IMG/VR virus record: IMGVR_UViG_3300005056_000029
Coordinates: 1 to 20,058 of that record
Reading direction: 5' to 3' (one strand)
DNA length: 20,058 nt
DNA from: a virus
In this document: positions 830 to 13,380 of the stretch, one piece after another
Layout of the letters: every line of letters starts with the position of its first letter
Position numbering within the stretch: the first letter of the stretch is position 1
The notes under the pieces: generated by a model
The model's database searches: none
The model's input: only the letters and a program-made list of their open reading frames with translations
What the model was told of the DNA's origin: nothing
Program-made: the position numbers and the translations under genes

Positions 830-2131
830 ATGTCAGCAAAGGGGAAGCAGTCTAATCAATTGCATGCACCGGAAATATTCGCCAAGAGCATAGCAGGACG
901 TTGGCGCTCCGCGGCGTTACGAGCAGCGCCAGGCATGATTGTGCTGTCGCCCTATCTGACATCAAAAACTGCTGAATCCGTCCTTGCTGCAGGAAAAGAG
1001 TGTGAAGTGCATACGCTTTTCGAGGTTGACCAATTTGCTTCTGGGGCTTCGTCGATCAAGACGCTAAAGCGGCTTGCAGAGAAGGGGCACAAGCTCTTTC
1101 ACCTTCCGGATCTTCATGCAAAGGCATTCGTAGATCCAGCGTCTTTTGCCAGCATCGGAAGCCAGAATCTCACGAATGCCGGGACGAAAAGGAAAGAACT
1201 CAGCGTTGCGTTCTCTGATTCTGTACTACCGAGGCACGTCTGGGACCTGATCCAGCCTTGGCTACGTGACCGAGTTCTGATCTCTCCCGAGATGATCGCT
1301 GAGATGGAGGTCAGTATTGGGCCGGCAGCGAAGGCGTTCAAGGTGGCCAAAGCGGCAGCGCAGAAGGCGCAGAAGGAGTATGAGCTGCGAGTAAAAGGGC
1401 ATCTGGCCGAGGGGCGCAAGAAGGAACGCCAACTAAAACTGAGATCTCTTCGCTCTGCGCTTGCCGAGAAAGTGAAATCGAAGGAGACAATACTTGCGAC
1501 GGTTAAAGAGAGAGGGCGCCGTGATGGTCCTGATATGGTCTATACGCGTACCCTCAAGCCTGAGCGCGGCCGGCGTTTTACTGACTGGACAATTGACGGC
1601 GAAGTGACGAAGCTTATTTGGTTGCGGCGCTACCTTTGTGTCATGGAGGATGACGGCCGAATCGGGTGGGCTAGGGTGGCTGACCATCGCATTACGCTCA
1701 TCAACACGGATATGCGCTCGCCCAATGATCAGATCGCTGTAGACGGCGAGAAATACAGCCTAGGTTTCGAGGGGGTGCCGCCAGATGAAAATGATAGCAA
1801 TCTGCTAATAAGGCTTTACACAGATGACGGTCTGATTGTGTGCACAATTGACGCGTGGTTCCATCCCGGTTCACTTACCATCCAGGACACTACCTGGACT
1901 AGAAATTTCTCTGCTTCGGCCGATCACAAGGCGAAGGTCCAAGAATGGATTCATAGCGACCGATTCGGGCGTAAGGTAATGCAATTAATGACGGAGCCGT
2001 TTTCATACGAGAGGAGCCTGTCGGGCGAGCAGGCCGACCGGTTCTTTGGCCCCGTTGGTACGAAAGTGAAGCTGCGAGTAGTTGCTGAGCATGGATGGCC
2101 AGTCCTTGTCGGTAACAGATCTGAAGATTGA
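830..2131 (+). CDS. PLD-like (HKD) nuclease-type protein with coiled coil; probable moron
   Basis: This 433-residue protein has a phospholipase-D-superfamily half-site near its N-terminus. A strand at 34-43 (PGMIVLSPYL) is followed by H96-x-K98 and D102, then GSQNLT at 110-115 and E123, matching the usual HxK...D, GSxN and Glu pattern. Only one HKD motif is present, so by analogy with other single-motif PLD nucleases it would need to dimerise. Residues about 165-228 are rich in Ala, Lys, Glu and Arg and look like a long coiled coil. The C-terminal 200 residues are mixed and I do not recognise them. The start is preceded only by a purine-rich AGAGAAAAAAG. The gene stands alone between the regulator and the terminase genes, and its codons are visibly more AT-rich than those of the virion genes, which suggests separate acquisition. 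A role in phage defence or host alteration is inference; a lipid-metabolic role is unlikely. Confidence 0.7.
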   Translation: MSAKGKQSNQLHAPEIFAKSIAGRWRSAALRAAPGMIVLSPYLTSKTAESVLAAGKECEVHTLFEVDQFASGASSIKTLKRLAEKGHKLFHLPDLHAKAFVDPASFASIGSQNLTNAGTKRKELSVAFSDSVLPRHVWDLIQPWLRDRVLISPEMIAEMEVSIGPAAKAFKVAKAAAQKAQKEYELRVKGHLAEGRKKERQLKLRSLRSALAEKVKSKETILATVKERGRRDGPDMVYTRTLKPERGRRFTDWTIDGEVTKLIWLRRYLCVMEDDGRIGWARVADHRITLINTDMRSPNDQIAVDGEKYSLGFEGVPPDENDSNLLIRLYTDDGLIVCTIDAWFHPGSLTIQDTTWTRNFSASADHKAKVQEWIHSDRFGRKVMQLMTEPFSYERSLSGEQADRFFGPVGTKVKLRVVAEHGWPVLVGNRSED

Positions 2132-2580: not shown

Positions 2581-2881
2581 GCCACGCGGTTCCCAGCCTG
2601 GCGAGCGCCGAGGTGGACGAACCAAGGGCACGCCGAACAAAGCGACAGCCGACATCAGGGCGTTGGCGCAAGAGTTTGGCGAGGACGCCATCCGAGAGCT
2701 GGCAACCATCCTAACGACCAGCGAGAACCATTCGGCGCGGATTGCGGCGGCAAAGGAACTATTGGACCGCGGCTATGGGAAGTCCAAGCAGTCGGTGGAG
2801 TTGACCGGCGAGGATGGTGGACCGATGCAGTTCGAAAAGATAGTGCGCGAAATTGTCGATCCTGCGCATAAAGACGCCTAG
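2579..2881 (+). CDS. Terminase small subunit (putative)
   Basis: This 100-residue protein opens with a basic GRTKGTPNK segment (about 13-21) and continues with a helical stretch holding DAIRELATI and AAKELLDRGYGK (about 60-67), a pattern common in small terminase-like phage proteins found just before large subunits. Such proteins bind phage DNA at the packaging site and hand it to the large subunit. The start is supported by AAAGGA seven bases upstream. The 3' end overlaps the start of the large subunit by 29 nt. The basic N-terminus is the likely DNA contact. At 100 residues it is shorter than many small terminases (P22 gp3 is 162), so the assignment rests on context as well as on the motif. 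Confidence 0.75.
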   Translation: MPRGSQPGERRGGRTKGTPNKATADIRALAQEFGEDAIRELATILTTSENHSARIAAAKELLDRGYGKSKQSVELTGEDGGPMQFEKIVREIVDPAHKDA

Positions 2882-4088
2882 GGTCTTCTCCCCGCTCCTG
2901 CAGCCGGCTCGATACAAGGGCGCTCACGGAGGGCGAGGCTCCGGCAAGTCTCACTTCTTCGGCGAACTCTGGCTCGAAGAGAACGTGAGCGAGAAGTTCG
3001 ATTTCGTGTGCGTGCGCGAGACGCTGAAGTCGCTGGAGTTCTCGGTCAAGAAGCTGCTTGAGTCGAAGATCCAGGCATACAACGCTGGCGACTACTTCGA
3101 TGTGCAGGACCGCCGAATCCTGTCCAGGAAGGGCGGCGTGACGATCTTCGAGGGCATGCAGAACCATACGGCCGAGTCGATCAAGTCGCTGGAGGGATTC
3201 GATCGGTCATGGTTCACGGAGGCGCAGAACGCCACAGACAAGAGCCTGACGATCCTCCGGCCGACGATCCGTAAGCCGGGTTCGCAGCTCTGGTTTGACT
3301 GGAACCCCGACCAGCCGTCCGATCCGATCGACCAGTTGCTCCGCGGCGAAGCGTTGCCGCCTGACGCTGCTGTCGTGCAGGCCAACTACATGGACAATCC
3401 CTGGTTGCCCGATGAGTTGCGCGCGGAGATGGAGTTCGACAAGCGGCGCGATCCGGACAAATACGCGCACGTGTGGCTCGGTGGCTATCGCCAGAACAGC
3501 AATGCGCGGGTGTTCCATAACTGGACGGTCGAAGAGTTCGACGTTGATCCGTCCCAGATCATCCGCCAAGGCGCGGACTGGGGATTCTCGGTCGACCCGA
3601 CGGTGCTGGTGCAGTGCTACATCGTCGGCCGCAAGCTGTATGTGCCGTACGTAGCGTATCGGGTGGGCTGCGAGATCGTAGACACTCCGGATCTGTTCCT
3701 GACGGTGCCGGACAGCGAGAAATGGCCGATCACGGCTGATTCCGCGCGGCCCGAGACGATCAGCTACATGCAGAAGCATGGCTTCCCGAAGATCATGCCG
3801 GCGATCAAGGGCGCGAAGTCGTTGGAAGAGGGAGTCGAGTTCCTGAAGTCGTTTGACATCGTGGTGCACCCGCGCTGCCAACACCTGATCGATGAACTGT
3901 CGCTCTACAAGTACAAGGAAGATCCGCTGACTGGGGCGGTCCTCCCGATCCTGGACGACAAGGACAACCACGTGATTGACGGGCTGCGTTACGCCTGCGA
4001 AGCAGCCAGGCGCGCAGGCAAGAAACCCAAGACCGAGGACAAACCGCAACGTCCGCGCATTCATGGCGCTGGCGGATGGATGGGCTGA
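2853..4088 (+). CDS. Terminase large subunit (Terminase_3/PBSX type)
   Basis: The ATPase-nuclease motor that pumps DNA into the prohead through the portal. With a TTG start at 2853 the protein has 411 residues and begins MSILRIKTPRVF. Walker A is GGRGSGKS at 26-33. The Walker B region is SWFTEAQ at 119-125, with E123 as the likely catalytic glutamate. A coupling-type motif LWFDWNP follows at 146-152. The C-terminal nuclease shows the expected acidic residues: D242 in ADWGFSVDP, D296 in TADSARPE and D376 in HVIDGLRYA. No ATG or GTG in frame fits the conserved N-terminus, so the TTG start, overlapping the small-subunit gene, is favoured; a CTG at 2862 is the alternative. Translation is probably coupled to the upstream gene. 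Confidence 0.93.
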   Translation: MSILRIKTPRVFSPLLQPARYKGAHGGRGSGKSHFFGELWLEENVSEKFDFVCVRETLKSLEFSVKKLLESKIQAYNAGDYFDVQDRRILSRKGGVTIFEGMQNHTAESIKSLEGFDRSWFTEAQNATDKSLTILRPTIRKPGSQLWFDWNPDQPSDPIDQLLRGEALPPDAAVVQANYMDNPWLPDELRAEMEFDKRRDPDKYAHVWLGGYRQNSNARVFHNWTVEEFDVDPSQIIRQGADWGFSVDPTVLVQCYIVGRKLYVPYVAYRVGCEIVDTPDLFLTVPDSEKWPITADSARPETISYMQKHGFPKIMPAIKGAKSLEEGVEFLKSFDIVVHPRCQHLIDELSLYKYKEDPLTGAVLPILDDKDNHVIDGLRYACEAARRAGKKPKTEDKPQRPRIHGAGGWMG

Positions 4089-12009: not shown

Positions 12010-12351
12010 ATGGCAATCAACTACGCAAAGTTCTTCGCGCCTGCGGTCCTTGCGACGGGTGCTGCTGTCGTGCGGTACACGATGCCCCTCACTCCCGGGA
12101 CGATTCTGCTTCGTGGCGGTCGCGTGAGCCTCACCAACACCACTGCTGCTTCCGTCACTCCGACGCTCTATGCGGTGCCAAATGGCGGCTCTCCGGTGCC
12201 GGGGAACGTGTTCTTCAACCTGCCAATCGGTCCGCTTCAGACGGTGCTCGTTGACGTTCCGGTGCTCGGCCCGGGCGACACGCTGCAGGACAAGTGCGAC
12301 ACCGCAACAGCGGTGACGATTCAGGCAATGGCAGGAGGCCTGTTCTCGTGA
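12010..12351 (+). CDS. Small beta-rich virion-type protein
   Basis: This 113-residue protein starts eight bases after the preceding stop, with GAGGT overlapping that stop as ribosome binding site. It is made of beta strands with Thr/Val/Pro-rich loops (RVSLTNTTAASVTPTLYAVP, then VPVLGPGDTLQDK) and has no signal or membrane helix. The style matches small phage head-fibre, decoration or adhesin-associated proteins, but I do not recognise a defined family. Its last codons overlap the start of the hydroxylase-like gene, linking their translation. Confidence 0.65.
   Translation: MAINYAKFFAPAVLATGAAVVRYTMPLTPGTILLRGGRVSLTNTTAASVTPTLYAVPNGGSPVPGNVFFNLPIGPLQTVLVDVPVLGPGDTLQDKCDTATAVTIQAMAGGLFS
12333..12350 (+). 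promoter_or_regulatory. Ribosome binding site fixing a GTG start
   Basis: AGGAGG at 12333-12338 lies nine bases before GTG at 12348. This perfect Shine-Dalgarno inside the previous gene's last codons decides the GTG start over an in-frame ATG at 12294, and the GTGA overlap makes stop and start adjacent. Confidence 0.85.
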
Positions 12352-12923
12352 GGAACTTCCTGAAGATTGCGGACGGCGCAAACGTCATGCCTCTGTTGAA
12401 CGCCATATATCGCAAGCCCGATCTGTGGAAGGCCGACGATTTCCTGCGCAAGTTCCCGCAAGGACCGTTCGGCGATACGGACACGATCTATCTGCGGTTT
12501 CAGGACCACGTGCCGTGCACCACGGAAGAGGAAGTCAAGCTTTACAAGCAGAACAAGCTCGCCGGCTATGACCTGCACGAGTGCCCATGGCGCCCGGAGG
12601 TCAACGAACTGCCGGAAGCGCGAGCCCACATCATGGCGCTGATGACGGCCATGGGCGCCACTCGTCTCGGGCGCTGCATGCTCAACCGCGTGAAGCCCGG
12701 GGGCAAGATTTTCCGCCATGCCGATTCGCCGTGGCACGCCTCGTACTGGGATCGGTACCACATCGTGATCCAGTCGGAGCCCGGGAACGTGTTCAGTTGC
12801 GGCGACGAGCAAATCTGGATGCGCCCGGGCGAAATCTGGTGGTTCCAGAACGCCATTGAGCACGATGTCACAAACAACAGCGCGGAAGACCGCATTCACA
12901 TGGTCGTGGACCTGAGGTTCTGA
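12348..12923 (+). CDS. Aspartyl/asparaginyl beta-hydroxylase-like 2-oxoglutarate/Fe(II) oxygenase
   Basis: From the GTG at 12348 the protein has 191 residues. The C-terminal half has the double-stranded beta-helix pattern of Asp/Asn beta-hydroxylases: H124-A-D126, a nearby DRYH (135-138), an FxxGDEQIWMRPGEIWWFQN strand pair (149-168), then H172 and R182 in EHDVTNN...DRIHMVVDL. H124, D126 and H172 would bind iron and R182 the 2-oxoglutarate carboxylate. Such enzymes hydroxylate protein side chains; the substrate here is unknown. It lies inside the virion operon, coupled to its upstream neighbour and one base from the acetyltransferase gene, which favours a virion or host protein as target. That target is inference. 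Confidence 0.78.
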   Translation: MRNFLKIADGANVMPLLNAIYRKPDLWKADDFLRKFPQGPFGDTDTIYLRFQDHVPCTTEEEVKLYKQNKLAGYDLHECPWRPEVNELPEARAHIMALMTAMGATRLGRCMLNRVKPGGKIFRHADSPWHASYWDRYHIVIQSEPGNVFSCGDEQIWMRPGEIWWFQNAIEHDVTNNSAEDRIHMVVDLRF

Positions 12924-12924
12924 C

Positions 12925-13380
12925 ATGGCAATCACCTTCATGGTCGAGCGGTTCTCCGAGGTCTACGGCGAACTGCTACCGCTGCTGCACGAGCACTACG
13001 GCGAAATCTCCACGCACAAGGACCATGGCGTGCCATTGGAGCCCATGGAAGAGGTCTACCGTGCCCGCGAGGCCGATGGCTCGCTTCTGATGGTGATCGG
13101 CCGCGAGGAAGGCGAGATCGTGGCCTATCTGGTTGCATTCATCGCGCCGGGTCTTCACTACCGCCCGTGCCTGACGTGCTCGCCAGACATTTTCTTCGTG
13201 CGCGAGGACAAACGAACTGGGATGGCCGGCGTCCGGATGATGCGTTTCGTTGAGAAAGAGGTTCGGCGCCGTGGCGTGAAACGCTGGGCCATTGGCAGCA
13301 AGGTCAAGCACGACGCTTCGGCGTTGTTCCGGTATCTCGATTTCGAGCCGGTTGAGACGACTTACGAAAAGTGGCTTTAA
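12925..13380 (+). CDS. GNAT-family N-acetyltransferase
   Basis: This 151-residue protein starts one base after the hydroxylase stop, with GAGGT upstream. It follows the GNAT fold order: an N-terminal helix pair, strands at SLLMVIGREEGEIVAYLVAF, a long strand ending in DIFFVRED, the acetyl-CoA pyrophosphate loop KRTGMAGV (a slightly shortened RxxGxA/G) leading into helix MMRFVEKEVRRRG, and a final ALFRYLDFEPVETTYEKWL typical of the C-terminal strands. Similar acetyltransferases occur in phage structural operons. The acceptor is unknown. With the preceding oxygenase it forms a two-gene protein-modification-type cassette. Confidence 0.8.
   Translation: MAITFMVERFSEVYGELLPLLHEHYGEISTHKDHGVPLEPMEEVYRAREADGSLLMVIGREEGEIVAYLVAFIAPGLHYRPCLTCSPDIFFVREDKRTGMAGVRMMRFVEKEVRRRGVKRWAIGSKVKHDASALFRYLDFEPVETTYEKWL

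Follow-up and report, generated by a model that had tools for sequence, protein, structure and literature searches.

A stand-alone single-HKD PLD protein as candidate anti-phage or anti-plasmid cargo of a P22-like phage

PLD nucleases recur in bacterial immunity, in DISARM, Dpd, SauUSI, Mokosh, Azaca, CoCoNuTs and the partners of Argonautes, usually within a larger assembly that directs the cutting. In the window (the whole 20,058-nucleotide stretch of viral DNA analyzed here), the terminase genes are directly preceded by a single gene whose product combines half of a PLD active site with a long helix and a C-terminal region that resembles no recognized domain. We asked what such a gene is doing in a phage genome: whether it belongs to the phage's own replication cycle, or whether it is, as a preliminary description proposed, a self-contained nuclease effector aimed at competitors.

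The gene and its carrier phage

The gene occupies positions 830 to 2131 on the + strand, as originally placed. It is an intact open reading frame with an ATG start and a product of 433 aa, and the call is backed by full-length homologues and an AlphaFold2 model. The window opens, at the contig edge (1 to 91, + strand), with the end of an IS21-family element, marked by four direct repeats of 20 bp that recur every 23 bp and not part of the system; this edge is 92% like DNA beside istA/istB of Massilia putida. Downstream of the PLD gene, a 9-bp GC-rich hairpin and T-run (2207 to 2239, + strand) forms a probable intrinsic terminator. RNA folding of positions 2195 to 2250 gives -24.3 kcal/mol (z = -3.5), in keeping with the gene-specific terminator first described; a scan for the terminator consensus failed to pick up this hairpin. 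Past the hairpin and ahead of the terminase genes there is also a decayed tRNA (2248 to 2305, + strand), with an Rfam tRNA score of 24.8 bits, below gathering, and an anticodon arm that is not intact; it marks the cargo slot. An intact tRNA lies near the terminase in three of the sequences compared (L077, L078 and L146).

The slot is bordered by a probable terminase small subunit (2579 to 2881, + strand; phrog_15261, function unknown, at E 2.8e-17, and small-terminase phrog_2538 at just E 0.024) and by the terminase large subunit (2853 to 4088, + strand; Pfam Terminase_3, E 4e-25), after which comes a P22-like portal gene. The slot had been described as lying between a late regulator and the terminase: terminase and portal are certain, but the upstream open reading frame (178 to 708, + strand, start uncertain), a possible late regulator, gave no match in Pfam or PHROG scans. 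The PLD gene also has the AT-rich composition ascribed to it, with a GC of 0.533 versus 0.597 elsewhere and a GC3 of 0.57 versus 0.65-0.82 in the phage genes.

Apart from L002, which is 99.98% identical to the window, none of the 79 related viral contigs retrieved through their similar terminases has the PLD gene, although many of them are short and do not cover the slot; nor does any of 20 long related viral records searched whole. In Xanthomonas phage PBR31, genes for a phosphatase and for GroES fill the interval from antiterminator Q to the terminase. The low GC3, the hairpin terminator, the decayed tRNA and the absence from the 79 related contigs together provide strong evidence that the PLD gene is late-acquired cargo. 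Nine of 20 relatives of the phage encode a tyrosine integrase, indicating that at least some members of the group are temperate; the carrier, of which the record is a fragment, is probably P22-like and temperate. Elsewhere in the window, two genes at positions 12294 to 13380 lie among the virion genes, the first resembling an aspartyl/asparaginyl beta-hydroxylase (E 3e-14) and the next GNAT-like; PBR31 likewise encodes an acetyltransferase, downstream of its tail-spike adaptor.

The PLD gene's place immediately before the terminase genes and its late-gene orientation would suit a lytic-phase nuclease of the phage itself, which might degrade host DNA or process phage DNA near packaging. We consider this improbable, because all related phages tested lack the gene, its GC3 is foreign, its own terminator parts it from the terminase genes, and homologues are carried by plasmids and by chromosomes that have no phage genes nearby.

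Predicted domains of the 433-aa protein

The active-site half consists of H96-A-K98, G110-SQNLT-115 and E123 (1115 to 1198, + strand). In an alignment of nine family members from four phyla, H96-x-K98, GSQNLT (110-115) and E123 show no variation, arguing that the match is not due to chance. With one HxK and one GSxN per chain (H96, K98 and G110-S-Q-N113), the protein is of the single-HKD kind. While these residues of the proposed motif stand, D102, which had been read as its aspartate, is not the canonical one: it lies at K+4 and is D in just five of the nine members, varying among relatives. The canonical position of HxK(x)4D, K+5, is here P103, so that its acidic residue is absent; five of the nine members have proline at K+5, as do distant relatives, and the HKD acidic residue is not conserved. 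We did not take this residue as defining the single-HKD class, as it is E in SauUSI and dispensable in AgaP, where the E112A variant keeps its toxicity (PMC11442185). A proline at this position therefore need not abolish activity.

In a Pfam scan the 433-aa protein matches PLDc_2 at E 0.01, weaker than the Pfam cut-off; all nine members scanned match PLDc_2, the best relative at E 3e-10. A match to phrog_1371 was set aside because it covers the coiled-coil part only, and a PDB sequence search with the family profile and the C-terminal profile returned no PLD or C-terminal relative. AlphaFold2 predicts a PLD fold over residues ~15-150, a single 60-residue helix at 153-212 and a beta-rich region at 215-430. 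In the full-length model (a monomer, from nine sequences), the pLDDT of 83 combined with a pTM of 0.59 indicates that the domains are well defined and their mutual placement is not. The fold matches of the PLD nuclease domain (residues 20-150; 887 to 1279, + strand) include NucT (Z 13.5), Nuc (Z 13.2), SauUSI (Z 12.5) and BfiI (Z 10.9), with TrmB-type domains also among them. The helix (1286 to 1465, + strand), a probable coiled-coil stalk, is poorly conserved and has no invariant columns. The monomer model thus agrees with the preliminary description in showing a PLD fold followed by a long helix, and its match to BfiI upholds, for the N-terminal domain, the analogy drawn with BfiI-type enzymes. 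Model and motif together make a strong case for a PLD nuclease, its activity being predicted.

The C-terminal beta-rich domain (residues 215-433; 1472 to 2128, + strand) is modeled confidently when folded alone (pLDDT 90.1, pTM 0.87), and its fold is not recognized. Neither Pfam nor PHROG matched it, Foldseek of the model against the PDB gave nothing at E < 0.1 (best E 0.12), and a search of viral structure models gave no good match, so the region is as unrecognized as first reported. The best VIA-align match in the PDB was Hat1, at Z 6.1 over 85 residues; such weak matches, some of them GNAT-like, were judged unspecific. No B3 chain appears among the PDB matches listed for this model. In the alignment, seven C-terminal residues are invariant, all within a conserved half at 215-300 (W253, R267, W280, R282, I288) and none within a variable half at 301-433. 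Such a division would be the pattern expected of a fixed coupling part joined to a variable recognition part.

An archaeal relative, from a Methanosarcinales MAG (L010, 3-968, adjoining a radical SAM gene), has a PLD domain of this clade and aligns at 47% identity (E 2e-44) as far as the first part of the helix; beyond that it carries a different C-terminus of about 150 residues. Alignment with DISARM-type DrmC and other single-HKD proteins is confined to the PLD domain: homology to DrmC ends after it, and no alignment was obtained between DrmC C-termini and those of the family. The swap in L010 and these PLD-only alignments indicate that the C-terminal part is exchangeable, lending moderate support to its putative role as a modular sensor.

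Relatives and their neighborhoods

Full-length relatives, at 26-37% identity, are found on Pseudomonas megaplasmids and also in Pseudarthrobacter, Bowmanella, Shewanella, Anaerolineae, Chroococcus and Pseudomonas genomes. Across samples of 398, 399, 369, 296 and 221 genomes, the full-length or C-terminal family was confined to the seed genome in each; the C-terminal profile had no match in the cyanobacterial sample, where the seed genome (G006) itself lacks a match to the profile, which leaves that negative uninformative. Among phages, INPHARED contained no relative of the PLD protein, and IMG/VR none beyond the same virus. Three copies are broken (L011, by a frameshift at a run of A, L012 and L017). 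The tree places Shewanella alongside Actinomycetota, Chloroflexota and Cyanobacteria, while Bowmanella falls with a P. aeruginosa plasmid. Judged from these sequences, the family is rare, patchy, mobile and phylogenetically scrambled between very different bacteria.

This distribution bears on whether the protein could be an ordinary PLD-family enzyme, such as a lipid, cell-wall or DNA-repair hydrolase, that rides mobile elements without any role in conflict. PLD folds do also serve lipids and regulators (e.g., TrmB), and some copies lie in neutral surroundings; rarity and a scrambled phylogeny are unlike housekeeping genes, however, and a single HKD half with GSQN is of the nuclease type. We regard such an enzyme as slightly less probable still than a lytic-phase nuclease.

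The gene neighborhoods are mixed. The Pseudarthrobacter copy is downstream of type ISP RM, McrB and McrC genes, the Shewanella copy (L015) is beside HsdR/M/S (type I RM) and PtuA, and the Bowmanella copy, on a short contig, is followed by an HNH endonuclease gene. A PemK/MazF-type toxin gene lies within about 2 kb of two cyanobacterial copies. The Anaerolineae MAG and Sulfuritalea copies are surrounded by ordinary genes, and the Pseudomonas copies belong to a plasmid module without obvious defense genes, although the copy on the P. aeruginosa plasmid has an antirestriction gene nearby. Consistent with the preliminary description, the copies are not fixed in housekeeping loci. Its expectation of homologues in defense islands holds for part of the family, with two copies at restriction islands and one beside the HNH endonuclease, but several are in neutral surroundings; the defense-adjacent loci, three of about eleven independent ones, are suggestive and not conclusive.

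Two neighboring proteins were also seen. One, of ~170 aa (MKKADIGVGRFYTDGK...), is encoded upstream of and near the PLD gene in L003, L013, L014 and L018, on Pseudomonas plasmids and chromosomes; it is part of a shared plasmid module and has a faint DUF3854 match in L013. The other, of 252 aa, lies between HsdR and the PLD gene in Shewanella (L015, 8956-9711), has no Pfam or PADLOC match, and looks regulator-like by eye in its N-terminal part. Across the examined family loci there is no conserved partner gene, and distant members have no common neighbor, suggesting that the PLD gene acts alone or with a distant partner.

Being phage-borne, and having a relative near an antirestriction gene, the protein might instead serve in counter-defense, acting against host defense or plasmids rather than against other phages. 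The chromosomal copies, however, adjoin host restriction systems outside phages, and an active nuclease would be an unusual form of counter-defense; we find this reading very improbable. As its relatives move among widely different bacteria and in some cases adjoin known anti-virus systems, the protein is a good candidate weapon against rival viruses or plasmids.

Proposed action and comparison with known systems

Taken together, these data lead us to favor, by a modest degree, a model in which the 433-aa protein is a self-contained, mobile single-HKD PLD nuclease with an anti-phage or anti-plasmid role, carried as cargo by a P22-like phage. By analogy with Nuc, BfiI and SauUSI, two chains would pair through their PLD domains such that the two HxK halves build one composite, metal-independent active site able to cut phosphodiester bonds in DNA or RNA, with the long helices (153-212) forming a paired stalk. 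The C-terminal domain would be the recognition or sensing module, keeping the nuclease off until its target is met, whether a phage product, a modification of DNA or the DNA of an invader. Its likeliest function would be to shield the lysogen, prophage included, against rival phages or plasmids. We infer dimerization, nuclease activity, autoinhibition, sensing and defense alike. The self-contained nuclease effector first proposed accords with the predicted structure, with catalytic residues that do not vary, with the exchanged C-terminus of L010 and with a family that is patchily distributed and mobile, but the sequence link to DrmC is unspecific and several homologues have neutral surroundings. 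We also count against protection of the lysogen that a consensus scan found no sigma-70-like promoter upstream of the gene; expression in the lysogen is putative.

Alternatively, the protein could be an abortive-infection type toxin, a general DNA/RNA nuclease unleashed by a phage protein at its C-terminal domain so that the cell is killed, as with Tha. The gene stands alone with no methyltransferase partner seen beside it, the C-terminal domain is confidently separate with a variable second half, and AgaP, another PLD protein, is toxic by itself if left unregulated (PMC11442185). Yet no trigger is known, and such a toxin is a sub-version of the favored nuclease model, inseparable from direct target recognition by sequence alone; we rate it as unlikely, though less so than the other alternatives. 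More broadly, it is possible, and we put it forward tentatively, that a hitherto undescribed family of single-gene immune nucleases exists in which a dimeric PLD domain carries an exchangeable C-terminal sensor of new fold and which moves across phyla among phages, plasmids and defense islands, needing no helicase, methyltransferase or other partner. If so, it would be a minimal nuclease-plus-sensor system in one gene with a swappable domain of unrecognized fold, a simple setting in which to learn how single-HKD nucleases are quieted and aimed, and one more phage-borne gene among those that prophages use against competitors.

Among known systems, DrmC of DISARM (PADLOC PDLC02599 type) similarly has a single-HKD N-terminal PLD domain, and profile comparison of the family with the DrmC-type L032 and L033 gives E 1e-14 over ~146 residues. 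All nine family members match PADLOC DrmC models; as a control, cardiolipin-synthase-like two-HKD proteins match the same models at up to 7e-26, equaling or beating the family, so these matches signify PLD and not defense, and we dropped PADLOC DrmC, DpdK and ZacB matches as defense evidence. Membership in DISARM was rejected, as only residues 29-125 match the DrmC model (E 5.6e-7) versus full-length matches of 1.7e-148 and 2.6e-203 for L032 and L033. No DrmA or DrmB gene accompanies the PLD gene in the window (terminase and portal) or in L007 and L015, where its neighbors are RM genes. DpdK was rejected with an NF041068 score of 15 bits against a 100-bit cut-off.

SauUSI is also a solo gene with a PLD nuclease domain, matched at Z 12.5 across 151 residues, but its chain adds an SF2 ATPase and an SRA domain for recognition (PMC7913695); the 433-aa chain has no Pfam match to either, and we rejected membership in this type IV class. 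The R proteins of BfiI, NgoAVII and CglI likewise place a C-terminal domain after an N-terminal single-HKD PLD nuclease, in the PLD + B3 layout of these restriction endonucleases (PMC5737866). NgoAVII (4rct) aligns over both ends of the 433-aa model, but at an rmsd of 20.9; there is no sequence match to these enzymes, and the helical stalk of the 433-aa protein is longer. No methyltransferase or helicase partner was seen adjacent to the PLD gene, and no cognate methyltransferase among the window genes scanned, which are part of the genes of a 20-kb fragment.

AgaP, the PLD partner of a haloarchaeal Argonaute, is also a PLD nuclease in immunity, but it works with pAgo, whereas the 433-aa protein has no conserved partner. 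A further parallel is Tha of an S. aureus prophage, in which one gene combines nuclease and sensing functions; it demonstrates that single-gene defense nucleases do occur in prophages (PMC11087260), although Tha is a HEPN RNase whose fold is unrelated to PLD. The architecture seen here was not described as a stand-alone system in the literature searched. The pairing of a nuclease with a recognition domain is known; what would be new here is its stand-alone state and the unrecognized fold of its C-terminal domain.
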